NCBI GenBank assembly: GCA_040754075.1
Contig: JBFMDH010000009.1
Span: 1-64,000, forward strand
DNA from: Acidobacteriota bacterium
GTDB taxonomy: Bacteria > Acidobacteriota > Blastocatellia > UBA7656
DNA: 64,000 nucleotides
Direction: 5' to 3'
This document shows, piece by piece, positions 35,303 through 63,427 of the stretch. Below the pieces are notes generated by a model. The model had not been told where the DNA came from. It saw only the letters and a program-made list of their open reading frames with translations, and made no database searches. The position numbers and the translations under genes were made by a program. Numbering within the stretch: the stretch's first letter is position 1; each line of letters starts with the position of its first letter.

Positions 35303-36958
35303 TCAACAAGCATTTGGTGACCGGCTTATGCTCTCCAAAAGTCGAAGGAGGCGGTCAACGTCGCAACGAATTTGCGATGCCTCATTCGGTTGATTGCCGG
35401 TTAATCGTTCAACGGTTCCAAGCAAATCATCAATTCGCCTTTCGGCTTCAAACTTCAACTGAGACAGACAGTCATTGAGGTTTTCCGTCCATTGAAAAAC
35501 CAGTCGCGATAAATTTTTTTCAACCAGAAACGGCAACTTTCCGATAAAGTGCTGTCTCACGACCGGGGTTACAAAAAACATCGGCAGGATTGTCGAAAAT
35601 ATTTCCCAGTCATGGTCGAATACTCGTCCGATATGAATGTCCGGGTTGAGTGGCGGATGGATTGCCATTGCCATTTCCTGAGTGTGCAGATGAACCCCGT
35701 AAAGCTTGAAAACCCGCTCGGCAAACCGGTTGCGGAAATCCTGTAAGACGCGGATGATTTGTTTCCTGACCGTTTCAATGAGCAAAATAAATTGGTGGTG
35801 TTGCTGATTTGAAATAGCGCGAATCTCTTGGGCGAGGCGTCGGTTTAACCACTCCTCAAAAGCCTTGCGGGAAGCGGCGAGACTTTTCGTCCATTGGGGA
35901 AACTCCGTTTTCAATTCAGCCAGCAGTTGGGTTGCTAACCTTGCCTGATAGTCGTGCAATATTTTTTTTACCGTCGTTCGTGTATGGTTTTGCGCGTGTT
36001 CGATGATTAACTGCATTGCCGCTTTGGTATCTTTCACAAAATCTTTTTCACTCAGAAGTTGTTGGCTCAATGCGGTGCGCTCTGCTTCACGCATCTCGGC
36101 AGATTTCAAAGCCAGAGCGAGATAGTTTTGACCTTCGCGCAGCAGGGTGACGATTTTTCGATGAATGATTTCCTCTCTGTTGTGGTGAAATTCAGTAGCA
36201 ACAGATTTGAGTAGTTCCGCTTCCAGTTGACGTTTGAAATCCTCGTAGCCCGGTCGAATAGAGAAAGGAAATATTGCCGGTGCATAGCCCAGCAGACTCC
36301 GGCTTTGTTCGCGGATGAAGGCAACCACTTCGCGATATTCGATTTCACTCAGTAAATCGGCTTTGGTTAGCAGGATGGCAACCTTTGGAGTGTATTGCGC
36401 CAAACGTTTTATCAGTTCGAGGTCAGACTGTGAAAGCGGCGTTTCAATACTCATGGCGATTAACGCAATGGCAACATTGGGCAGCCAGTTCAAAGCGGCT
36501 TGGGTGTTGTGGGTTAAAGCGCTATCTAAACCCGGCGTATCAATGAAGCGCACCCCGTTGAATTTTTGCAGCGCCGGTGATTGAATCGTCACCTGCGCCG
36601 CCTGCTTCTGATTGTGCGGGTTCTCGCGTTCGTTGATAAACTGGCTGATCAGGTCAAGCGCAATCTCGGTCGTTTCTCCATTAAGAAAAGTCACAAACGC
36701 TTTTTCTGGTTCACCGTAACCGATTTCTGTAATCAGCGCGGTCACCGGAACCGCGCCGACCGGAAGAAAAGGAATATCCAGAAGGTTATTCAAGAAACTG
36801 CTCTTTCCGGCTTTGAACCGGCCGACCACCGCAACATTGATTTCATTTTCCTTGACCGCTTTTTGGCAGACGTTGATAAGTAGCGCGAGAGTTGTGATTT
36901 GATAGCGTTCTGCGATTTCCGAAACGACATTGATTGCGTCATTGAATGGTGAATTCAT
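35303..36958 (-). CDS. Bacterial dynamin-like GTPase
   Basis: A 551-residue large GTPase. G1 is GRFKAGKSS (about 48-56), the G2 region VPVTALITEIGYG, G3 DTPGLDS and G4 TKADL. The C-terminal 300 residues are helical with coiled-coil character, as in bacterial dynamin-like proteins. No clear membrane segment is visible, though FSTILPMFFVTPVV is hydrophobic and may act as a membrane paddle. Relatives act in membrane remodelling, fission or defence. It sits alone between crcB and clpC. Confidence 0.88.
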   Translation of the reverse strand: MNSPFNDAINVVSEIAERYQITTLALLINVCQKAVKENEINVAVVGRFKAGKSSFLNNLLDIPFLPVGAVPVTALITEIGYGEPEKAFVTFLNGETTEIALDLISQFINERENPHNQKQAAQVTIQSPALQKFNGVRFIDTPGLDSALTHNTQAALNWLPNVAIALIAMSIETPLSQSDLELIKRLAQYTPKVAILLTKADLLSEIEYREVVAFIREQSRSLLGYAPAIFPFSIRPGYEDFKRQLEAELLKSVATEFHHNREEIIHRKIVTLLREGQNYLALALKSAEMREAERTALSQQLLSEKDFVKDTKAAMQLIIEHAQNHTRTTVKKILHDYQARLATQLLAELKTEFPQWTKSLAASRKAFEEWLNRRLAQEIRAISNQQHHQFILLIETVRKQIIRVLQDFRNRFAERVFKLYGVHLHTQEMAMAIHPPLNPDIHIGRVFDHDWEIFSTILPMFFVTPVVRQHFIGKLPFLVEKNLSRLVFQWTENLNDCLSQLKFEAERRIDDLLGTVERLTGNQPNEASQIRCDVDRLLRLLESISRSPNAC

Positions 36959-36984: not shown

Positions 36985-37033
36985 GAGGAAAAAGAAAACT
37001 CCTACTTTGCCTCTCTTCAACCGTAAGCTAAGT
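36985..37033 (-). terminator. Terminator downstream of clpC
   Basis: On the minus strand ACTCCTACTT and AAGTAGGAGT form a 10-base stem, followed by TTTCTTTTT. It lies about 80 bases beyond the clpC stop. Confidence 0.75.
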
Positions 37034-37110
37034 AGGAGTCATTGACTGCTATGGGCAGTGATTAAGGGTGGACTCCACCACCACGCAGGTAACGATAAAA
37101 AGTTTACGCG

Positions 37111-45186: not shown

Positions 45187-48100
45187 TTAGGTTCCCGCCT
45201 GTTTAACGGTCACGCTCTTTCCGGCAACGGTTAAGGTGGTTTGCCGCGTCGTCGAGCCGGGATTTGCGGAAACCGAAATCGTCACAGTGCCAGTGCCGGT
45301 GCCACTTGAACCGGAAGTAATCGTCACCCAGGTGACCGGGCTTGAAGCAGTCCAGTTGCAACTGGAACCGGTCGTCACTGTGATGGTTCGCGCGCCGCCC
45401 GGTTTGGTGAAGGCAAAATAGGTTGACGAAACCTGATAGGTGCAACTCGCTGCGCCGCTTTGGGTCACCGTGAAAGTTTGCCCCTGAACAGTGATCGTTC
45501 CTTGTCGTTCAGTGGTGCCCGGATTTACCGCAACGGTGTAATTGACCGCGCCGCTGCCGGTGCCGCTTGAACCGGAGGTAATGGTGAGCCAACTGTCATT
45601 GCTTACTGCCGTCCAGTTGCATCCTGCGGTTGTAGTCACAGAGAAATTACCTGCACCGCCGCTTGCCGTGTAGGTCGCAGTGGTCGGTGACAAGGTGTAT
45701 GTACAACCGCCACTCGCGCCATCCTGATTTACCGTAAAGGTTCGTCCGGCGATGGTCAGGGTTCCGCTGCGCGAAGGATTCCCGGCATTCGATGCAACCG
45801 TGTAATTGACCGCGCCGCTTCCCGAACCGCTCGCCCCGGAAGTGATCGTAATCCATGCGGCATTGCTCACCGCTGTCCAGTTGCAGCCTGTGGTCGTGGT
45901 GACGGTGACGCTGCCGGAGCCGCCAGTCACCGGGTAGGTTTGCGAGGTCGGCGAAATCGTGTAATTGCAAACCGGCGTGCCGCCTGCCTGCGTGATGCGA
46001 TGGATTTTTTTACCGACGACAATGACGGTCGAGCGCGCGTTGGTCGTTGGATTGGCGGCAACACTGTATTTTACGGCACCATTCCCTGTGCCATTCGCTC
46101 CTGAGATGATGGTTACCCAACCGTCCATACTGGTTGCGGGTCTTGAGCACCCGCTTGGAGCCGAAACCGTGATGCTGCTGGTTACACCTGATGCGCCATA
46201 TGAAGCGCTTGCAGGAGAGAGTCCGGTCACACAGGTTGTGCCGTATTGGGTGACGTTGAATGTTTGACCGCCAATGGTCATCGTCCCGACCCGGTCTGTG
46301 GTTCCCGAATTGCGCGCCACTGAAAAACTCACTGTGCCATTGCCGTTGCCGCTCGCGCCTGAAGAAATGGTTATCCACGAGGTGTTACTCACAGCCGTCC
46401 ACGCGCAACCGCTCGGAGCCGTTACCATCACACTGTTTGTGCCGCCGTTTGAATCAAAGAAATCGGCGAGACTACTTAACCCATAGGTGCAAATCAATTC
46501 AGCCTGAGTGACGGTGAAAGTTTGCCCGGCGATGGTGATAGTGCCTTGTCTTTGACTGCCCGTACTATTGACAGCAACCGAATAATTCACCGTGCCGTTA
46601 CCGCTGCCGTTTGCGCCCGAGGTCACAGTAATCCACGAATCATTACTGACGGCTGTCCATATGCAATCTATGCCTGCTGTCACATTGACGCTGCCGGAGC
46701 CGCCTGACCCTGTGAAGTTTTGACTGCCTGGGGCAATCGCATACGAACAGGAATTGTTCACATTCAACAAGCCGTTGGCGGTGACGGTTTGCCCGTCGGG
46801 ATTGGTGATGGTGATATTTTTTGCGCCGCTGCTTGCGGTCATAGTGTTGAGATTGAGAACCACTGTAGTCGGGTTTTGGTAAGTCACGCTGTTGACCACG
46901 ACGCCGCCATTGACGCTTGCGGTTAAACGACAGCCAAAGCCATTGCCGGGATCGAAAAATGCCGAACCGTTTATTGAATTGGCGTTGATGGTGACATTGA
47001 TCGAAGTGCCTTGTCCGATAAGCGACGGGCTGGCGCTTGCCGGGGTCGCCGGTGGCGGCGCTAGCAATTTGACCACGCGCAATCCGTATGAATTGGTCGC
47101 ATCGCAAAATTCCTGCACCGTCCACATGGTCATATCATCGCAGGGGTCGAGACTGGTGTAAGAATAATCGCCCCAGCGTCGAAATCCTATTGCCCCGGTA
47201 TCGCCCGCCGGGTTGTAGGCTGTCGTTGAACTTGTGAGCGCCGCAGGCGTTTGCAAAGTGCCGGGCGTGTCGCTTGCCAGACGTCCTGCGGTTGCGGCGT
47301 TGATGAATTCATTGGTTCCGGCAATGCTTGTCGCCATCGCCATATGTCCCTGCCCGGAAACCATCACCGAAGGCATCCAGTAATTCCTATCATCAACCGT
47401 GTTGGTTGCCGAAGACGCAAACAAAGTTCCGCTCTGCACGACGCCTGGCGTTGCGGTATTTAAATTTTGAATTTCATACCAGCGCGAACCGTTGCGCGTG
47501 CGTGTGCCGCCGCCCGACGCGATGCCGTTGTTATCGACGCCAAGGTTGTGCGAAGTCCATAATCTGCCATTGCGAATGTGCGCAGCAATCAATCGGTCAT
47601 CGGTGGCATCGAGTTGTCCGTTCGCGCCGCCGGCGTTGCCTTGATGGCGAACCGTGAGCGGCAAGGCGGTTGTCAAAATGGTGATGGAAATATTTGCCGA
47701 AAGCACAGGGGTGGTGTCGGCATTGGTAACGCGGCGCGCAATGAGCGAACCGAAACCGGCATTATCAACGCCAATGAAATAGCCTTCGGTTGCCGCCGGG
47801 TCATAATTATCGACGCCCTGCGGCGCAAAGGGTCCTGTGCCGGTTGCCCCGCCGGTTAAATTGCGAAACGCCGTGACCACAATCGGGCCGCCGCCGGTCA
47901 CAGAACTTTTACGCACCACAAAAGCCGCGCTGCTATTAAACGTCAGCGGTGTGCCACAAAACTGATTGACGCCGATGTATAGCCCGTTGGCATCAATGCC
48001 AAGCGTCGGGTAATCCGATTGGCAATTGGCATCTCCGGCAGGAGTGACGAGATTTTGCTGAAATGCAAAGAATGTCCAGATGGTCGCGCCATTAATCGTG

Positions 48101-48852
48101 GCGTTGTTGCTGACGGCAATCAAGATGCTGTTTGGCGTCACCGCTGCGGTGCTTGCGGTGACGAACCAGCGATTGGATAAACGGTCAAAACGCACACGCG
48201 GATAGTTGGTTGATGCGGTGCCGCGCACCGAATTGAAAAAAGTATTGAGCGTGGTATTGAGCGTGCCAATGACGCCGGTTTTGTCGAACACCCGTATGCG
48301 CCCGTTGACCGCTAAAAGAAATTGCGTCGGTCCCGCAGCGCCCATCGTATCGGGCGGAAAGGCGTTGGTATCGGTCAAGGTCGCCGCTGTAAAACTGGTC
48401 GAAGGCGTTTGCGGCGCGCGCGGTTCCAGCGCAGGCGTATTCGGGTCGCGGTCTGGAAACGCAGCGATGGCAAGCGATTCAGGATTTTGCGGCAAATTTT
48501 TTCTGTCGGTTATTGGTCTTGCAAATTCGTAGGCTGGTGGCGCAGGGTCTTTGCCCGCCAGTTGGCTGTCGAGTTCCATGATTTCGGCGGTGGTTTTCGC
48601 AATACCCACAGCGCCTGTCCACGGCGTGCCGATGAGTTGCCCGCTATCAGTCTGGCGATTTGACGAAAGCGCAGACTTTTTGATGGCAGAAGTTTTTGCT
48701 TTCGAGACAGGCGATAATACAACCGCGCGACGGGTCAGATGTTGCGCCAGTAAGTTACCCGGAATTGAAAGCATAAAGAGCAGTGAGAGGGTCAATGCGC
48801 CGATTTGGCGAAAGGGTAGGATTTGACGAACGCGAAACCTGAATTTGAACAT
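45187..48852 (-). CDS. Large secreted protein with six BACON-type repeats
   Basis: A 1221-residue exported protein. Start at [10 protein letters not shown] with a signal peptide ending LLAQ. Residues about 130-620 form a beta-propeller-like or sialidase-like module of unknown type (repeated motifs such as [11 protein letters not shown] and [17 protein letters not shown]). An IPT-like domain follows (about 620-710), then six tandem BACON-type domains to the end, each with C-x-WTAVSN-x-SWITITSG and an ending like [13 protein letters not shown] domains bind carbohydrates or mucins in characterised cases. It is probably a cell-surface or extracellular adhesion protein. Confidence 0.88.
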
Positions 48853-49187
48853 TATTCCTCCAAACCGAATATCTAAGAGCACACAAGATGCCGATTAAAA
48901 CCGCAAAATTTTATGTTGGTGAACTCGCTGTTGAATTGAATCCCGTAAAGATGCCCTCGGCTTATGAGTTCGGGCGTTCTTAATTTTTAGCGACTCCGTA
49001 TGCTATGTCACCACTAAATTCCTGTCAATTTGCAGGGGGAATTCTTCAAAGTGAGACTGGCTTTGGCGTCAGGTCTTGCGGCGCGAATATCGCTTCAATG
49101 AATCAGCCAAGGAAACTGCGAAATCCGAGTCTCACTTTTAATCGCGCCCCATGCAAAGCCGCAAAGGTGTGTGCTATAAGAGTGGGG
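48853..49187. other. Gene-free stretch with inverted repeat before rfaE2
   Basis: No gene is evident between the BACON gene and rfaE2. Arms AAAGTGAGACT (49048-49058) and AGTCTCACTTT (49128-49138) are perfect and extend imperfectly to about 20 bases, giving a roughly 90-base palindromic element. The promoters of both divergent genes should lie here. Confidence 0.6.
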
Positions 49188-51728: not shown

Positions 51729-54700
51729 ATGGAAAATCCTCGCTCGGTCTCAAAAAAAGCGCGAGAGTCACAAACCCAGACGCCATCCAATGAGGTCGCG
51801 TCAAACTTGCTTGACCGCCGCATTTTTGAAACCCTTGCGCGCATCGCGCAGGGCGACCTCGGTTTTCCCATCAACGGCTTTCATAAAGACCTCACCGGCG
51901 AAGGCAGAGAGTTACTCTTAAACCTCGACGGCTTGGCGCGCAAACTGCGCTACATCGTCAGCCGCCTGCAACGCGCTTCGGATTCCATTGAAACGGTCGT
52001 CGGTGAAGTGTTGCGCGGCACCCAGACTTTATCCGCCAGCGTCATTGACGAAGCCAAATCCGTCGAAGAGACCTCCAGCTCGATTTCGGAAATCAATTCG
52101 TCCATGCATTCGGTAGGCGATAATTTGCAATCGCTTTCCAACCTCACGCAAACCACTTCAAATTCCATCATTCAGATGGCGGCGTCGATTGACCACGTGT
52201 CGCAAAGCGCCGAGGGACTCGCGCAATTTGTCGAAGAGACCACAGCGGCAATCGAACAGATGGCTTCAAGCATTCGCAAAGTAGCCGAATCCACTGAAAC
52301 CCTTGCCGAATCCGCCGAAACCACGGCGCGTTCAATGGAAGCGATTGACAATTCAACCCGCAGCATCGATGAATCGGTCAAAGAGACCACGGTGCTTGCC
52401 GCAGAGGTCGCGCAATCGGCAGACGCCGGCAGTCAACTGGTCGCCGACACCGCGACCAGCGTTTTGAAAATTAAAGAAGCCATCGATGCCGCCACCGAAA
52501 CCATTTCGCGACTCGGCAAACGCTCGGAACAAATCGGCGAAGTCACCCACGTCATTGATGAAATCGCCGACCGCACCCATCTGCTGGCGTTGAACGCTTC
52601 GATTCTTGCCGCGCAAGCCGGAGCGCAGGGACGCGGCTTTCGCATCGTCGCCGATGAAATCAAGGAACTCAGCGAACGCACGGCGGCTTCGACGCGCGAA
52701 ATCGAAGAGATGATTAAAGCGGTGCGCGAAGACGTCATTGAAACCGTTGAACGGGTCGCCGCCGGTAGTCAACGCGCTGACGAAGGCGTCGAGCTTGCCA
52801 AACGCGCTTCGGATTTTCTCAATGAAATCCGCGAAAAAACCACGACCTCATCCGACCGCATACGCCACATCGCAGACGCCACCGCCGTGCAGGCTTCCGA
52901 AAGCCATACTGTATTTGAAGCCGCCGATTCGGTGCGCCAACAGGCGCGCGATATTCAACGCGCCGCCAACGAACAGGCGCAGACCGCCAAACAAATCGGC
53001 GAACGCGCCCTGCATATGAGCAACCTCACCAAACAGGTGCAGCGGGCGACCGGCGATCAGGCGAAAGTTTCGCGTTACATCGCGTCGGCAATGGAAGAAT
53101 TGAGCCTGGTGGTTGAACAGATTCGCCTGGCTTCCGATGAACAATCCACCGAAGTCGAACAGGTGCTGCGCGCCATTGAAACCATTAAAGAAGTGGTTGA
53201 CCGCAATCAGGCTTCGATTTCCGGTATCAACGGCGCGGTTGATTTGTTGGTGCGCGAAGCCGAACTTTTAAACCGTGAAGTTGAGGCGTTCACCTTGCCG
53301 GAATCGGAACACGGCGGGCATTTGCGCTTTGCATTGAGAACTTCGCAACTCACCCTCGACCCGGCAACCGTCTCTTCGATTTCGCGCAACGAAGTCATCT
53401 CGAATATTTTTGAAGGCTTGGTGCAATTCGGCGAACGCGCAGAGATTCGCCCGGCGATTGCCGAACGCTGGGAGATTTCGCCCGATGGTCGCACTTACAC
53501 CTTCGCTTTGCGTGAAACCGCGAAGTTTCATAATGGTCGCAAGGTTCGCGCCGAAGATGTGAAATATTCCTTTGAACGGCAGATGCGCCAAAACGAAGAT
53601 GCCGCCGGTTGGGTGTTTCGCCCGCTGGTTGGCGCGGAAGAGTTTATGTCCGGCGAAAGTGATTCGGTCGCCGGGATTCGCGTGATCAATGAGCGCGTTT
53701 TACAACTTGAACTGGTGCAACCCGTGGCATTTTTTCTTTCGACTTTGTGCGTCGATTATGCCTACATTGTGCCGCGTGAAGAGATCGAAAAACCGTCATT
53801 CGATTTTGAATCAAAACCCATCGGCTCGGGTCCTTTCCGTTTGCTTGAACCGGTCAACGGCAACAAAGAGGCGCAACTCGAACGCTTCAGCAATTATTGG
53901 AATGCGGAATTGCCTTATGTTGACCGCTTGACCATTCAATTCGGGTTAAGCGCCGAAGAAATTTTTGATGCGTTTATCAAAGGCGACCTTGATTACGTCA
54001 GCGATTTGCCGCTTACCTACCTGGATGAATTTCGCCAACGGGTCGGTGAAATTCACCTGCTTGAAGCGTTGCAATTGCAAACCCGTATGCTGGTGTTTGA
54101 TTGCGAGCGTCCGCCATTTGATGACCCGCGCATCCGTCAAGCCATCAATTACGCCATCAATCGCGAGCAGTTTATTCAAGAGGTTTATGCGGGAATGGCG
54201 GAACCGGCAGTGGGACCGATTCCGCCAGGGCTTCTCGGTTACGACCCAACTCAGCAGATTTATCAATACGACCGCGAACGCGCGCTTGCATTGCTGAAAG
54301 AGGCAGGCTACGACGGCGGATTCGATACCGAAATCTGTTGGTCGGATTCGGTGAGTCCCACGGTTGAATGTTTGAAAGACGATCTGGCGGCAGTCGGCAT
54401 TCGCGCTGAGTTTCGCTACATTGGACTAACGGAATTGCAACGCACGCTGAGAATGCGCGCCACGCCGATTGTCGGACGCGATTGGTATGCCGATTATCCC
54501 GACCCGGATAATTTCACCTATGTGCTGTTCAATTCGCGCAACCGGAATTTATTCATCGGCACTTATGCCAACGAAGATGTTGACCGCTTGACCGATGAAG
54601 CGCGCGCGGTGATGAATCGTGAAGGGCGCGAGTCGCTTTACAAAGAGGTGACCAGGCTTCTGCTTGAAGACGCGCCGTGTGTATTTTTGGCGCATCGCCG

Positions 54701-54806
54701 CAGTTTCGTCGCCCATCGCGCAGACCTCGAAGGCGTCGCGCTGCATCTGCTTTCGCCATTCGTGACGCCCAAAGATTTGTGGTTTGCGAAAACCGGCGGA
54801 AAATAA
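51729..54806 (+). CDS. Chemoreceptor (MCP) fused to a family 5 peptide-binding protein, apparently cytosolic
   Basis: A 1025-residue fusion. Residues about 30-85 resemble a HAMP linker (ARIAQGDLGFPIN, then LARKLRYIVSRL). Residues about 90-515 are the methyl-accepting coiled coil, with a recognisable but divergent tip (IADRTHLLALNASILAAQAG at 277-296, then QGRGFRIVADEIKEL) that differs from the usual consensus at several signalling positions. From about 527 to the end is a complete SBP_bac_5 dipeptide/nickel-type binding protein (ALRTSQLTLDPATVSSIS, then RETAKFHNGRKVRAEDVKYS). No signal peptide or membrane helix is visible anywhere, so the normally periplasmic module seems to work in the cytosol, perhaps sensing peptides after uptake. 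Confidence 0.9.
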   Translation: MENPRSVSKKARESQTQTPSNEVASNLLDRRIFETLARIAQGDLGFPINGFHKDLTGEGRELLLNLDGLARKLRYIVSRLQRASDSIETVVGEVLRGTQTLSASVIDEAKSVEETSSSISEINSSMHSVGDNLQSLSNLTQTTSNSIIQMAASIDHVSQSAEGLAQFVEETTAAIEQMASSIRKVAESTETLAESAETTARSMEAIDNSTRSIDESVKETTVLAAEVAQSADAGSQLVADTATSVLKIKEAIDAATETISRLGKRSEQIGEVTHVIDEIADRTHLLALNASILAAQAGAQGRGFRIVADEIKELSERTAASTREIEEMIKAVREDVIETVERVAAGSQRADEGVELAKRASDFLNEIREKTTTSSDRIRHIADATAVQASESHTVFEAADSVRQQARDIQRAANEQAQTAKQIGERALHMSNLTKQVQRATGDQAKVSRYIASAMEELSLVVEQIRLASDEQSTEVEQVLRAIETIKEVVDRNQASISGINGAVDLLVREAELLNREVEAFTLPESEHGGHLRFALRTSQLTLDPATVSSISRNEVISNIFEGLVQFGERAEIRPAIAERWEISPDGRTYTFALRETAKFHNGRKVRAEDVKYSFERQMRQNEDAAGWVFRPLVGAEEFMSGESDSVAGIRVINERVLQLELVQPVAFFLSTLCVDYAYIVPREEIEKPSFDFESKPIGSGPFRLLEPVNGNKEAQLERFSNYWNAELPYVDRLTIQFGLSAEEIFDAFIKGDLDYVSDLPLTYLDEFRQRVGEIHLLEALQLQTRMLVFDCERPPFDDPRIRQAINYAINREQFIQEVYAGMAEPAVGPIPPGLLGYDPTQQIYQYDRERALALLKEAGYDGGFDTEICWSDSVSPTVECLKDDLAAVGIRAEFRYIGLTELQRTLRMRATPIVGRDWYADYPDPDNFTYVLFNSRNRNLFIGTYANEDVDRLTDEARAVMNREGRESLYKEVTRLLLEDAPCVFLAHRRSFVAHRADLEGVALHLLSPFVTPKDLWFAKTGGK

Positions 54807-57397: not shown

Positions 57398-60300
57398 ATG
57401 AAAAAAGCTGCTTTCCGGCTGCTGCCAGCCGTCGTCTGCCTGTTTGCCTTTTTCACCTTTTCATTTCTTGCCGCGCCTGCGCCGCCCGTTGTCGATGAAG
57501 CGGCGATGCAGGCTGAATTAAAACGCGATGCCTTGCTCATCATCGTGCCGGTTAAACACGCAGCAAACTTGACCGCCGCAACTTTCACCATCGAATTAAT
57601 CGATTCGGATAATGAAAAACTCGCAGAAGTTTCGCAATCGGTTACGCTTCGACGCGGTGAAAATTTGCTGCAACTGCGTATCGTGTGGCGGGAACTCCTT
57701 GATGAAAAAAACTGGCAGGAACGTTTGCAAATGCTCACCTGGACGCGCGTGCATTACCGTTTGCAAACCGTCGAAACCCGGTATAACCAGGCGCAGGAAG
57801 TCGCGGGCATTCGCGCGCTTGGCTGGATGCTTAAAGATTTATTCACCTTGAGAATCATCGCGCCAACCGAACCTTCACAAGGCACACCGGCGCACATTCG
57901 CGTCTTTGCCGAAAACCCTTTGACCCACCAACCGGTCGCCGGTGTGAATGTTGAAGCGGCGCTTGCGCTCAAAAGTTATGATGAGAAAACTAAAAAAGCG
58001 GAAACCCGGCAGGGTATGACTTCAGCCAATGGCAGCGTTGCCTTTGACCTTTTGCCACCAGTGACCGATGAACACGAAGAGCAGATTGAGTGCAGCTTGA
58101 AAATTGTTGCCACCCGTCCGGGATTCAGAATAGAAGAAGAACGCGAACTGGATTTTTATGACCGCGCTGCTGCCATCATCACCACAGACAAACCGCTCTA
58201 TCAACCCGGTCAAATTCTGCATATTCGCACACTGGTTTTTGACGGGTTGTCGCGTCGCCCGCGCAAAAGCGAAAACCTGACCGTCGAAATTGAAGACGGG
58301 GAATACAAAAACGTTTTTGAACGCGAATTAGTGACCGACCGTTTCGGCGTCGCTACAGCCGATTGGACAATTCCCGCGACCGCGCCACTCGGGCAATATC
58401 AAGTCGAAATTCACAACCAGGATAATCAGCTTGCCGAAGCCAGCGTGCGCATCAGTCGTTATGAATTGCCGACCTTTGTCGTGAATGTCGAACCCGATAA
58501 ACCGTTTTATCTCCCTGATGAAGATGCTCGTGTGAAAGTTAGCGCCGCGTTCGTATATGGTGAACCGGTAAAAGCCGGGCGTGTGCGCGTTGCCCGCGAA
58601 GAAGAGCGCGAGTGGAACTGGAGAGCACAGAAATGGGAGGTTGAAGAAAGCGCGGTATGGGAAGGCGAAGCCGAAAAAGACGGCGCGTTCACCGCCCAAA
58701 TCGCGCTTACCGATGAACACCAAAAACTCAAAGAATCGGATTACTCTAAATATAGAGACATCAATTATGTCGCGCGCTATACCGAAGCCGCGTCCGGGCG
58801 CAGCGAAGAACGCCGCTTTCGTCTGCGCGTCACTAAAGACGCCATTCATCTCTATGTTTTTTCAACCGACATACGACAACCGACTGCCTTGCCGCTCAGG
58901 TTTTATGCGGTGGCGAACTATGCCGACGGCACACCGGCAACGGTTGATATGGCTTTGAAAGCGCAATACAAACACCGCTCGGATGAAAAAGGTTTGCCGC
59001 CGCTTTTTACAATTCACACGCGCACAGATAAACATGGCATCGCTTTGATTGAACCCGATGCGCGACTACAGGAAGCCGAAGATTTACAACTTGAACTTTC
59101 GGCGCGTGACGCGAAAGGGGCTACAGGAGCCATTTCTGAGGAATTGCCGATTTCCGGAGGCGACGCGCTGAGAATCAAAACGCCGCGCGCGCTTTATCAT
59201 CGCGGCGAACCTTTGCAGGTAGAAATTCAATCAACCAGAGAGAGCATTCCGCGACTGTTGGTCGAACTGTTTGCCGATAATCGTTTGCTTCGCGTCGAAG
59301 AGGTCGCGGTTCGTGAAGGTCACGCAAACCTGGAGTTCGACGCGACCGCCGACTTGCGAGGTCGCGTCACGATTGTCGCTTATGACCCGCAGGAAGCAAG
59401 CGATTATCGTTGGGACGCCCGGCGGTTTGCGACACGTAGCGTGCTTTATCCGACCAGGCGCACACTTTCGTTAAATGCGCGATTCGAGCGCGATTCGGTG
59501 AAACCCGGTGAAGCGACGCGCCTCAGCTTTACCGCAAATGCGCCTGATGGTCGCGGGCGCGAAACCTCGCTTGGCGTGGTGGTCTATGATACGGCGGTCG
59601 AAGAACGCGAACGAACCGAATGCGAATCGGGGCAGGGGCGCAATTATTTCGGCGCGTACTATTCGCGATTTTTCAACTGGCACGAGGCGGTTTCGGATGT
59701 CACGCTCGGTGACCTCGAACAACTCGACGAAGCGCGCCCGTTTCCCGCCGACCTCGAACTGATTGCCGATGCCCTGTTGCAGCGCACAGGCAACGGCTAC
59801 CGGTATCGTTCATATTCAGCGCGGGCTGAGGGTGAAAGCGTCGAAGCAGAATTTGATGATGCAATTGAACCATTGAAAATCACCATCAACTGGATACTCG
59901 GAAAACCATCGCTTGCCGCATTGCCGCGCGACCGCGAAAGTTTGCAGCGGTTGCTGGCGCGTCACGGCATTGAACTCGACCGCCTCGCAGATTTCTGGGG
60001 CAATCTTTACCGGGTGCAATTCGCCGTGCGCGATAAAAATTATACGGTGGATATTTTATCCAATGGTCCCGATGAACAACCCGGTACGAACGATGATTTT
60101 CGACTGGTGGAATATTCAAGAGCTTTCTGGGACACCACCTATAACAACGAATTGATCCGCGCGATTGACGGGTTCAAATCGCGGAAAGGTCGTTATCCAA
60201 ATCGGGTTGCGGAAATTCTCGAGGAACTGCGTTTTTATGGCGCATCGTTTCTTTCTGCCAAAGACCCCTGGGGCGAAGCCTATAAAATCATTTATACCCC

Positions 60301-63300
60301 TTCGCGTTCGCGTTCGGTTTATGAATTGCGAGTGATGTCGACCGGCAAAAATCGCAAATTCGATAAAGACCGCTACGACGATGACCTCACATTATTTCAA
60401 CTCGAACGCGATTGGTTTGCCGACAAGCGCGAAGCGATACGCCGCGTTTTAACCACCCGCTTCATTAATAAACAGGCGTTTCCCGAAAACGCTTCGCAAT
60501 TTGAAGCCTATTTGAACGACAGCGGCATACCTGTTCAAGACCTGCGCGACCCCTGGGGATACCCGCTGCAAATCAATATCAATGAAACGGCGCGTTACGG
60601 CGTGCGCCCGCAAGTGACACGTGTAGCGGCGACGGTGAATGCGCCTGCGGTAGACAAGACAACCCTTGAACCGATAACCCAAACGATTCGCCGCATCTGG
60701 TTGAGTGTTTCAGTAAAACCGGGATTGGCAACCTGGTTCACCGGGGTGAATGAACCCATCAATTTTTCGGTTGCAACATATGATCAAATCGTGCGCGAAG
60801 AATCCCGAGAGGACGCGCTGCAACAAGCGAATGAATCAAAAAACAGCAATCAAACTTCAACGAATCGCAGAAAAGTGTTACCTGCCGGGTTGGGCGGCGC
60901 GATAAGCGGAATTGTCGTTGATATGAGCGGCGCAGTGATTCCAGGCGCGACCGTGACCCTGACCAATCAAGCAACCAACGTCGTGTTACAAACCAAAACC
61001 GATGATAATGGCTACTATGGATTTTCGAGTTTGAGTCCGGGAAAATATTCTTTAAAGGTCGAGTCACAGGGATTCAAATCATCAGAATTTTTGAGTATTG
61101 ATGTTCGTCTCTCGGCAACCACGATTGTTGATGTGGAGTTGAATGTCGGTGGCGTAAGCGAAACGGTGATGGTTGCCGCAGAGCCAACTTCTTTGCAAAC
61201 TGAGAGCACCCAAGTGTCGGCCTCGCAAACGCGCGACCAAAAAACCGCGAGCCTTCCGCAACGCGCCAATCCGGCAACCACGCCGCGATTGCGCCAGGAT
61301 TTTCCTGAAACCCTGGTGTGGCAACCGACGCTTGTAACCGATGCGCAAGGGCACGCCGAATTGAAATTCAAGGTTGCCGATTCCATCACCACCTGGCGCA
61401 TGGCGGTTATCGGTTCAACCGAAGACGGTTTGATTGGCACAACAACCGCTGACCTGCGGGCATTTCAACCGTTTTTTGTCGAACATCAACCGCCGCCATC
61501 GCTCACCATTGGCGATGAAATCGAAGTGCCGGTCGTGGCGCGAAACTTCCAGAAACGCGCTGCCAGCGTCAACGTCAAACTCGCGCCCGCCGCCTGGATG
61601 CAGCTATTTGCAGATGCCGAACAGACCCTGCGCGCCGCTGCCAATGATTCGGCAACGGCGCGCATTCAATTCAAAGCTATCAAAGCGGGCGAGTTCAAAC
61701 AGGAAGCCTCAGCAATTGGCGACGATGACGGCGACCGGGTTGCCAGACCTGTTGCTGTGCGGTTCGATGGGCGCGACAATTGGCAAACCGCTGCGGATTT
61801 GTTCCAGCGCCAAACCACAATGGAGGTTCAGGTGCCAGGTCGCACGATCAACGGTTCATCGCGAGTTGAATTGAAAATTTACCCCGATTTATTTGCTCAC
61901 GCGGTCGAAGGCATCGAAGGCATTTTGCAACGCCCGCACGGTTGCGCTGAACAAACCACGAGCAGCACTTATCCGAACCTCATCGTATTGCAATATCTGC
62001 AACGCACAGGGCGCAAGCTGCCAGCGATTGAACAGAAGGCTTTGCGATATCTTGGTGAAGGGATTGCCCGGTTGCGTTCGTTTGTCACACCAGGCGGAGG
62101 ATATGCGTACTTCAACGGCTCAAGCCCGGATGTGCCGCTTACTGCCTACATCGCGCGTTTCCTGAGTGAAGCCGGAGAATTTGCAGCGGTTGATGAAGCG
62201 GCGCTTGACGGAGCGCGCCGTTATTTAGCCCATGAACAGCGCGTTGATGGTGGGTGGAGCGCCTATGGTTATGCAGGTTCCAATGAATCATCGGCAAGGG
62301 TTTCGGCAACCGTTGTTTGCTCACTGGTCTTTTCGCAAGCGCAATCAGCAGCGGATTCAAAGCCTACGGAAAACGACCCGCAAAAAGCCATTGTCAGAGG
62401 CTTGGATTTTCTGGCGCGCGCCACACGCGAAGGCGATGATGCTTATGCGCTGGCGCTTTATGTGCTGGCGGCGCTCAAAGCCGGACGGGTAGAGGCGGCA
62501 AGCGAATCTGCGAACACACTATTGAAACTGGCAAATGCATCATCGGGCGCATTGCACTGGGGGGTTGATTACACGCCTTATTACGGCTGGGGGCGCGCGG
62601 GGAAAATCGAAACCACAGGGCTTGCTGTTGAAGCATTGATGACCCTCAGCCAACAACCTAACGTGAAAGAGCGTGAAGCGTTTGCGCAGGCGGCGCGGCG
62701 CGGCTTGCTTTTCATTGTGCAGAGCAAGGATGAATATGGCATCTGGTATTCAACGCAGGCAACTATCAATGCGTTGCGGGCAATTATTGCGGTGGCTTCG
62801 CAGGACGACACTGTGAAATTATCAACCTTGAAGTTTGAAATTCAGGTTGATGACGGGGCTTCACAAATCGTTGAAGTGAAGGTTGACGCAGGTGAACCGG
62901 CTTTGGTTGATTTGACGGCGAGGTTCCCGCAAATCTTTGACATAGCGGGGACGCATCGCGTGAGCTTGCGAACCGAGGCTTCGCGCACCTTGAGCGCCGC
63001 AGTGGTTACCCGTTCAACCTTGAGATGGGATGACAAAGATGCGCGAGGCATCAGCGATGATGGGGCGCTGCGCTTGCGTGTCGGGTTCGACAAAACCGAA
63101 ATCAAGCAGGGCGAAACCGTCACTTGTACGGTTCACGCCGAGCGCGTCGCATCCGGCTACGGCATGATGTTGCTTGAAGTCGGATTGCCACCGGGGGTGG
63201 ATGTCGATGTCGAAAGTTTACGTCGCGCGTCGGTATCGCGATTTGATGTCACGCCCGACCGTGTGGTGATTTATCTCTGGTCAAAACCGGGCGGAATCGA

Positions 63301-63427
63301 TTTCAGTTTTACATTTCGCCCGCGACTGAAAATCAACGCCAAAGCGCAACCGTCGTTGCTCTATGATTACTACAACCCGGATGCGCGGGTTTCCGTGCCA
63401 CCGGCGCAATTTGTCGTGAACCGATAG
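57398..63427 (+). CDS. Bacterial alpha-2-macroglobulin with inserted GspG-like and carboxypeptidase-regulatory domains
   Basis: A 2009-residue exported protease-trapping protein. A signal peptide (1-27, no lipobox Cys) is followed by macroglobulin domains (GQILHIRTLVFDGLS; YELPTFVVNVEPDKPFY), then, unusually, GspG/pseudopilin-like segments (GFKSRKGRYPNRVAEIL about 925; QDLRDPWGYPLQI about 1050), a carboxypeptidase-regulatory-like domain (SGIVVDMSGAVIPGATVTL, about 1166-1258), the A2M core (LVWQPTLVTDAQGHAEL), the thioester motif GCAEQ (C1516, Q1519) and the complement-like helical and receptor-binding domains. The thioester Cys and Gln are intact. Confidence 0.92.
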   Translation: MKKAAFRLLPAVVCLFAFFTFSFLAAPAPPVVDEAAMQAELKRDALLIIVPVKHAANLTAATFTIELIDSDNEKLAEVSQSVTLRRGENLLQLRIVWRELLDEKNWQERLQMLTWTRVHYRLQTVETRYNQAQEVAGIRALGWMLKDLFTLRIIAPTEPSQGTPAHIRVFAENPLTHQPVAGVNVEAALALKSYDEKTKKAETRQGMTSANGSVAFDLLPPVTDEHEEQIECSLKIVATRPGFRIEEERELDFYDRAAAIITTDKPLYQPGQILHIRTLVFDGLSRRPRKSENLTVEIEDGEYKNVFERELVTDRFGVATADWTIPATAPLGQYQVEIHNQDNQLAEASVRISRYELPTFVVNVEPDKPFYLPDEDARVKVSAAFVYGEPVKAGRVRVAREEEREWNWRAQKWEVEESAVWEGEAEKDGAFTAQIALTDEHQKLKESDYSKYRDINYVARYTEAASGRSEERRFRLRVTKDAIHLYVFSTDIRQPTALPLRFYAVANYADGTPATVDMALKAQYKHRSDEKGLPPLFTIHTRTDKHGIALIEPDARLQEAEDLQLELSARDAKGATGAISEELPISGGDALRIKTPRALYHRGEPLQVEIQSTRESIPRLLVELFADNRLLRVEEVAVREGHANLEFDATADLRGRVTIVAYDPQEASDYRWDARRFATRSVLYPTRRTLSLNARFERDSVKPGEATRLSFTANAPDGRGRETSLGVVVYDTAVEERERTECESGQGRNYFGAYYSRFFNWHEAVSDVTLGDLEQLDEARPFPADLELIADALLQRTGNGYRYRSYSARAEGESVEAEFDDAIEPLKITINWILGKPSLAALPRDRESLQRLLARHGIELDRLADFWGNLYRVQFAVRDKNYTVDILSNGPDEQPGTNDDFRLVEYSRAFWDTTYNNELIRAIDGFKSRKGRYPNRVAEILEELRFYGASFLSAKDPWGEAYKIIYTPSRSRSVYELRVMSTGKNRKFDKDRYDDDLTLFQLERDWFADKREAIRRVLTTRFINKQAFPENASQFEAYLNDSGIPVQDLRDPWGYPLQININETARYGVRPQVTRVAATVNAPAVDKTTLEPITQTIRRIWLSVSVKPGLATWFTGVNEPINFSVATYDQIVREESREDALQQANESKNSNQTSTNRRKVLPAGLGGAISGIVVDMSGAVIPGATVTLTNQATNVVLQTKTDDNGYYGFSSLSPGKYSLKVESQGFKSSEFLSIDVRLSATTIVDVELNVGGVSETVMVAAEPTSLQTESTQVSASQTRDQKTASLPQRANPATTPRLRQDFPETLVWQPTLVTDAQGHAELKFKVADSITTWRMAVIGSTEDGLIGTTTADLRAFQPFFVEHQPPPSLTIGDEIEVPVVARNFQKRAASVNVKLAPAAWMQLFADAEQTLRAAANDSATARIQFKAIKAGEFKQEASAIGDDDGDRVARPVAVRFDGRDNWQTAADLFQRQTTMEVQVPGRTINGSSRVELKIYPDLFAHAVEGIEGILQRPHGCAEQTTSSTYPNLIVLQYLQRTGRKLPAIEQKALRYLGEGIARLRSFVTPGGGYAYFNGSSPDVPLTAYIARFLSEAGEFAAVDEAALDGARRYLAHEQRVDGGWSAYGYAGSNESSARVSATVVCSLVFSQAQSAADSKPTENDPQKAIVRGLDFLARATREGDDAYALALYVLAALKAGRVEAASESANTLLKLANASSGALHWGVDYTPYYGWGRAGKIETTGLAVEALMTLSQQPNVKEREAFAQAARRGLLFIVQSKDEYGIWYSTQATINALRAIIAVASQDDTVKLSTLKFEIQVDDGASQIVEVKVDAGEPALVDLTARFPQIFDIAGTHRVSLRTEASRTLSAAVVTRSTLRWDDKDARGISDDGALRLRVGFDKTEIKQGETVTCTVHAERVASGYGMMLLEVGLPPGVDVDVESLRRASVSRFDVTPDRVVIYLWSKPGGIDFSFTFRPRLKINAKAQPSLLYDYYNPDARVSVPPAQFVVNR

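Follow-up and report, generated by a model that had tools for sequence, protein, structure and literature searches.

A soluble MCP-SBP_bac_5 fusion protein in Acidobacteriota, a candidate intracellular chemoreceptor

We analyzed a 64,000-nucleotide stretch of DNA, hereafter the window (contig JBFMDH010000009.1 of assembly GCA_040754075.1, positions 1 to 64,000), from an acidobacterium of the class Blastocatellia, in which one gene joins the signaling coiled coil of a methyl-accepting chemotaxis protein (MCP) to a family-5 solute-binding protein (SBP) domain (Table 1). Pfam matched the first part as MCPsignal (PF00015; residues 230 to 402, E value 3.8e-41, 141.2 bits versus a cut-off of 34.6) and the second as SBP_bac_5 (PF00496; residues 572 to 938, E value 4.2e-82, 276.6 bits, far above the cut-off), and the PHROGs matches were to the coiled coil and the SBP, with nothing further. 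Residues 1 to 260 contain no signal peptide and no membrane-like segment, and the only stretch with a hydropathy above 1.5 over 19 residues (657 to 675) lies within the SBP domain. Upstream of the ATG, the open frame extends by just 21 codons (1046 versus 1025 amino acids). Thus, Pfam, the hydropathy scan, and the intact frame bear out the initial annotation of one soluble chain comprising an MCP coiled coil and a whole SBP_bac_5 domain.

The MCP rod, including its HAMP-like start, spans residues ~31 to 523, and the SBP domain takes up residues 524 to 1025. Residues 55 to 523 are free of proline, and the first proline encountered in the residue scan, Pro524, directly precedes the SBP domain. 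The hairpin turns near residue 298, which leaves two arms of ~225 residues each, and carries one strict match to the methylation-site motif (residues 172 to 181) as well as one looser match. The HAMP-like start proposed in the initial annotation resembles this domain in the alignment, whereas Pfam found no HAMP match in the protein at E ≤0.1.

Among five segments compared, conservation is highest in the hairpin tip, with 82 to 91% identity within the window's family versus 29 to 59% for the N terminus. The core of the tip, I(L/I)AAQAG, occurs widely in the MCP-SBP_bac_5 family and also in Nitrospirota MCPs that lack SBP_bac_5; one of these (L128 2762-4438) is encoded on a contig with CheR- and CheB-like genes, named by reading their translations. 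In 10 of 11 soluble proteins aligned, residue 282 is Arg instead of Gln, and residue 299 is Ala, Gln, Thr, Ser, or Pro (Ala299 in the window protein), a position held by Glu in most membrane-anchored relatives; the sole exception, G007b, keeps the equivalents of Gln282 and Glu299. Arg305 is present in the window's family and in one of the G007 copies. The initial argument from a tip that differs from the usual CheA/CheW-binding consensus does not hold in view of the MCPsignal score, the shared core, and the small number of clade-specific positions. Judged by its sequence, the tip is a recognizable MCP variant, with no departure that rules out CheA/CheW.

An AlphaFold model of residues 522 to 1025, built with 60 sequences, reached a predicted local distance difference test (pLDDT) score of 92 and shows a DppA/OppA-like fold. 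The best Foldseek matches were H. pylori DppA with peptide (8upi) and E. coli DppA with Gly-Leu, the nearest solved structures being mostly family-5 peptide-binding proteins, and VIA-align superposed the model on E. coli DppA (8z1z_F) with a Z score of 42.0 and a root mean square deviation of 1.7 over 473 residues. In the alignment with 1DPP, Asp922 corresponds to DppA Asp408, which we take to bind the peptide amino group, and an Asp occupies this position in 27 of the 28 proteins of the family. DppA Arg355, presumably the anchor of the dipeptide carboxylate, faces a gap in the window protein, so we describe the putative ligand as amino-bearing and not as a dipeptide. The title of 8z1z mentions a charge swap at precursor Arg383 and Asp436, by our own count mature residues 355 and 408, which fits the role assumed for the Asp. 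As modeled, the SBP domain is complete and apparently ligand-competent, and among ligands bearing a free amino group, peptides or peptide-like compounds are the most likely. The nearest free-standing SBP that we found (L160 4638-6242, 34.8% identical) adjoins a gene read as a permease, a putative assignment that fits the idea that a transporter SBP was captured. In the same class, long frames of mostly ~1400 to 1900 amino acids contain two SBP_bac_5-like stretches in tandem (L050 4672-10344, minus strand; L051 4300-9981, minus strand; L052 1305-7259, plus strand; and L070 to L075). The one scanned, the L050 frame of 1890 amino acids, reads Ser/Thr kinase, AAA_16, TPR-like, SBP, and SBP, and these frames represent a second way of joining family-5 SBPs to signaling parts.

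The lack of conservation of Arg355 also fits an alternative in which the SBP domain is a protein-interaction module that docks another protein, with the receptor reporting the contact. A DUF4388-DnaJ-TPR protein would be an example of such a partner: the fusion has a DUF4388-DnaJ gene in divergent orientation no more than 2 kb away in genomes G002, G003, G020, G146, and G094, which represent two families (the Pfam domains of three of these genes were checked), and pulldowns with the Helicobacter pylori chemoreceptor TlpD are reported to have yielded metabolic enzymes (PMC4820699). Yet a J-domain gene of this kind is absent from the 64-kb window and from the flanks retrieved for G001, G004, G006, and the two G007 copies (the upstream flank is cut by a contig end in G005, G084, and G079), and the Asp922 motif and the cleft predicted by the model have been kept across great divergence, as expected of ligand binding. 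We regard docking as unlikely and favor a ligand-binding role.

Table 1. Features of the fusion gene and genes found near its homologs
Feature	Position	Strand	Basis
Whole gene, soluble MCP-SBP_bac_5 fusion	51729..54806	+	Single open reading frame (ORF), 1025 amino acids plus stop; Pfam; full-length homologs
HAMP-like start, residues ~31-80 (LARIAQGDL)	51819..51968	+	Resemblance by eye in alignment
MCP coiled-coil hairpin, residues ~71-523	51939..53297	+	Pfam MCPsignal; residue scan; helical in low-confidence full-length model
Hairpin tip, residues 279-311 (IADRTHLLALNASILAAQAGAQGRGFRIVADEI), expected CheA/CheW contact region	52563..52661	+	Alignments
Family-5 solute-binding domain, residues 524-1025	53298..54803	+	Pfam; AlphaFold model; PDB matches
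WYADYPDPDNF motif, residues 919-929	54483..54515	+	Alignment with 1DPP
DUF4388-DnaJ genes near fusion (TPR in those scanned)	L043 11577-13259; L046 7840-9609; L049 12830-14242; L111 3193-4809; L114 3285-4382	divergent	

A profile of the junction (residues 380 to 700) was searched in 162 genomes of the class and in a phylum sample of 396 genomes. The best 13, 7, and 5 candidates per genome were scored in the class fusion, CheA, and phylum fusion searches, respectively, and the counts are thus lower bounds. The same domain order was present in at least 14 of the 162 class genomes, namely, all 7 of the window's family, G007 (two copies), G020, G146, G084, G082, G094, and G079; their best E values were ≤8.6e-89, and the next match, at 7.6e-36, was to the SBP part alone. 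At least 42 of the 396 phylum genomes matched at E ≤1e-40; in at least 30 the match spans the junction, and the other 12 were left uncounted. PF00015 lies in the same frame in all 25 junction-spanning phylum genomes outside the class. A scan of genome contigs returned 12 fusion loci, all acidobacterial by title, and missed divergent members of the phylum, so that it does not bound the distribution. The bearers include Pyrinomonas methylaliphatogenes K22, taken to be genome G020. The receptor type is scattered through the phylum, mostly in bacteria without flagella. A joining of two separate genes by a sequencing error near 53300, considered in the initial annotation, was rejected, as the junction is conserved across class and phylum genomes and lies in a single open frame in 12 of the 13 further class genomes that carry the fusion; in G146, the match is divided between the ends of two contigs.

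Not every copy is intact. The junction-spanning frame of G274 is broken further on, the frame of G094 leaves the family sequence near residue 880, and G006 is the one protein of the 28 without an Asp922 equivalent. Together with the altered tip residues 282 and 299 in 10 of the 11 soluble proteins, this might point to a relict fusion that no longer signals and is either kept or decaying. However, the frame is open over its full length in 7 of 7 genomes of the window's family, and the tip is the segment that has changed least, which makes degeneration a quite improbable account of a protein that we otherwise read as a working receptor.

All 17 relatives tested from outside the class possess two N-terminal membrane helices separated by a loop of 3 to 15 residues. 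Their Lys and Arg residues number 1 to 5 before the first helix, 0 to 2 in the loop, and 1 to 6 after the second helix, a pattern consistent with an N-in/C-in topology. Since the loop leaves no room for a periplasmic sensor, the MCP rod and the SBP domain of these anchored relatives should be cytosolic. Paired hydrophobic helices were found in none of the 11 soluble proteins tested, among which the highest single hydropathy peak (1.62, in G007b) lies inside the coiled coil. In a tree of all 28 proteins, from which, as from the topology test, the partial proteins of G079, G082, G094, and G146 were excluded, the soluble ones fall on one side of a branch with support of 95/98, corresponding to one change, as in 96% of the bootstrap trees; its root is not fixed, and G007b, G352, G185, and G170 form long branches. 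As the other 17 proteins are anchored, a single loss is the simplest reading: the N-terminal anchor was apparently lost once in the window's clade, and the soluble form probably descends from an anchored protein whose SBP was already cytosolic.

SBPs of family 5 usually reside in the periplasm or are lipoproteins, and the start of the free-standing SBP at L160 4638-6242 reads lipoprotein-like, both of which would suit export of the whole chain and its display outside the cell, where it would bind ordinary external peptides. Export was nevertheless rejected, because the N terminus of the window protein has neither a signal peptide nor a membrane helix and the membrane hairpin of the relatives should keep the chain inside; moreover, an external MCP tip would be unable to meet CheA. 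We give this reading hardly any credence and treat the protein as cytosolic.

Binding proteins are textbook external sensors. Here, a binding protein has apparently been turned inwards by a receptor family spread over the phylum. A family-5 SBP domain also serves as cytosolic sensor in SgrR, a cytosolic helix-turn-helix regulator, and the NCBIfam SgrR model matches residues 542 to 724 of the window protein (E value 7.3e-10, 38 bits versus a cut-off of 476). The output of SgrR is DNA binding, whereas the window protein lacks an N-terminal DNA-binding domain (Pfam, E ≤0.1). With DppA and OppA, the window protein shares the two-lobed fold, as predicted by the model, and the Asp for the amino end of the peptide, but it has no signal peptide, no adjacent transporter genes, and no Arg355. 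Its closest counterparts are the anchored acidobacterial MCP-SBP_bac_5 proteins (L141 to L157), which are homologs, 25 to 37% identical over 566 to 1008 residues. They contain the W..D..D.D.F motif in 17 of 17 cases and in most cases the same tip core (degenerate in G352, G366, and G173), but differ in their two N-terminal membrane helices with a short loop and in mostly keeping Glu at the position of Ala299. Nitrospirota MCP-Phosphonate-bd proteins (L128 4435-7236 and L129 3137-5962) likewise combine an MCP hairpin with a C-terminal, probably cytosolic binding-protein domain; this domain, however, is PhnD-like (PF12974), and they have a Pfam HAMP domain and an N-terminal membrane part. This suggests an independent fusion and an inward turning of binding proteins on more than one occasion.

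The layout of MCP plus SBP has been published before, in a table that lists McpK of Myxococcus xanthus (MXAN_6456, 1048 amino acids) with an MCP domain at residues 246 to 463 and a "bacterial extracellular solute-binding proteins" domain (Table 1 in PMC3945109). By this table description, it resembles the window protein in its two domains, a chain of ~1000 amino acids, and a location outside che operons, and differs from it in having three predicted membrane helices versus none. The authors of PMC3945109 assigned McpK to the Dif pathway on the basis of phylogeny and heptad class 44H. In three other papers, the name McpK apparently refers to a Pseudomonas protein. In the literature searched, with partial coverage, no account was found of a soluble MCP-SBP_bac_5 form, a cytosolic placing of the SBP, or the acidobacterial family. 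TlpD is described in PMC12871147 as a soluble chemoreceptor with a zinc-binding CZB sensor C-terminal to the hairpin, a PAS domain N-terminal to it, and a hairpin about half the length of that of Tsr. It thus resembles the window protein as a soluble receptor with a C-terminal sensor, which in the latter is SBP_bac_5, with no CZB match at E ≤0.1 (Pfam). The reversed order that had first been seen as an oddity is not odd in this light: an MCP is a hairpin, so both of its ends lie together, and the sensor of TlpD is C-terminal as well.

All fusion genomes searched for the CheW family gave a match (9 of 9 and 25 of 25), and CheR was present in 13 of 13. The window's genome contains seven CheW-family matches, three of them in CheA-sized frames. 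Two of these frames, on contigs C25 and C7, are accompanied by CheW and CheR genes (on C25 also by an MCP). The third, with Hpt, HATPase, and CheW domains, follows ribH and nusB, precedes cheW, and has no MCP beside it. At E <1e-100, with a profile built from fusion-bearing genomes, which favors those genomes, this nusB-linked CheA type was counted in 12 of 14 fusion genomes versus 27 of 148 others (Fisher P = 5.5e-7, shared descent ignored); one of the 39 genomes counted, G152, may carry another CheA type. It was missed in the fusion genomes G006 (92% complete) and G082 (71% complete). nusB was seen directly before CheA in 9 of 11 loci fetched from fusion genomes (all but G003 and G005), as well as in 6 of 7 fetched from genomes without the fusion (all but G008). 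The pairing is clearest in G020 and G146; in G020 (99% complete), the fusion is the only PF00015 match and a single CheA has CheR and CheW within 8 kb. The fusion is also the sole PF00015 match in G146, G084, G094, and G082 (96, 89, 88, and 71% complete, respectively), but not in G079.

Of the 39 fusion genomes, two species of one genus, G020 and G146, matched FliG_C, and the remaining 37, some of them incomplete and the window's genome 100% complete, gave no match; in a control set of 14, the four matches were E. coli, B. subtilis, Caulobacter, and Thermotoga. The output is probably non-flagellar in nearly all bearers, including the window's organism. The non-flagellar pathway of the initial annotation thus remains probable on the strength of the FliG_C result, whereas the tip fails as a reason for it.

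The best explanation of the data as a whole, which we put forward with moderate confidence, is a cytosolic chemoreceptor whose SBP_bac_5 domain senses a small, amino-bearing cytosolic ligand and acts on a CheA/CheW complex. From the observations above, we infer a class of ligand, a mode of coupling, and a signaling partner. The SBP_bac_5 domain, situated at the end of the rod opposite the tip, would be the ligand-binding domain and would capture a small cytosolic compound that carries a free amino group; a peptide or a molecule resembling one is most likely. Closure of the two lobes of the domain beside the HAMP-like N terminus, at the same end of the hairpin, would alter the coiled coil, which in turn would change the activity of the CheA/CheW complex at the tip. 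In the window's genome, the best candidate for the partner may be the CheA encoded just after nusB and before cheW.

Several points weigh against this explanation. The full-length AlphaFold model is weak (pLDDT, 59.5) and was not used for the geometry of the junction. The Asp922 equivalent is absent from G006, and the gap opposite Arg355 means that the ligand need not be a dipeptide. The window gene does not adjoin che genes. The association of the CheA type with the fusion is confounded by shared descent, and the same CheA type occurs without the fusion in 27 genomes, of which 18 of 21 searched have no PF00015 match over the cut-off (17 have none at E ≤0.001, and G159 has a weak one). In these 18 genomes, CheA does not need the fusion receptor and must act without a recognizable receptor. 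Finally, G020 and G146, which offer the clearest pairing, are also the only bearers of FliG, making a flagellar output possible there.

Going further, it is tempting to speculate about a dedicated pathway in which non-flagellated acidobacteria read their own peptide pool through the soluble SBP receptor and the nusB-linked CheA/CheW, with a non-motility output such as surface polysaccharide, pili, or gene expression; we offer this as a tentative possibility, well short of the explanation favored above. P. methylaliphatogenes is cultured and, by our searches, has one Pfam-detected MCP and one CheA, so that this species would allow direct tests of what an intracellular chemosensory pathway with one receptor senses and controls. 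In PMC4644332, it is described as a non-motile cell with a near-complete set of flagellar genes, using carbon sources that include peptides and proteins.

Two further chemosensory arrangements were encountered. On contig C7 of the window's genome (L037 7426-14533), CheW, CheR, and CheA genes are accompanied, at the place expected for a receptor, by a CHASE3 membrane protein without an MCP domain. CheA genes in genomes with no PF00015 match over the cut-off include those of G008 (L099 6140-8113; 100% complete), G016 (L102), and G053 (L100), along with 15 more, and nusB was adjacent in five of six fetched.

Upstream of the fusion gene, the Pfam scan identified a cytidylyltransferase-like gene, an HNH gene, and a YdjM-like gene, and downstream of it lie a TPR gene, a zinc-ribbon-like gene (no match over the cut-off), and an alpha-2-macroglobulin gene; neither a che gene nor a transporter gene was among the neighbors scanned. 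A tRNA search of the 64-kb window found none. A fluoride riboswitch match (37026-37091, minus strand; 35.9 bits versus a cut-off of 34) is located a short distance ahead of the start of a Dynamin_N GTPase gene (35303-36958, minus strand), which would be an unusual control target for this riboswitch. The alpha-2-macroglobulin-like protein (57398-63427, plus strand) comprises 2009 amino acids and contains a CarboxypepD_reg domain as an insertion as well as a T2SSG-like stretch, and a 1231-amino-acid protein with repeated BACON domains is encoded at 45187-48882 on the minus strand.

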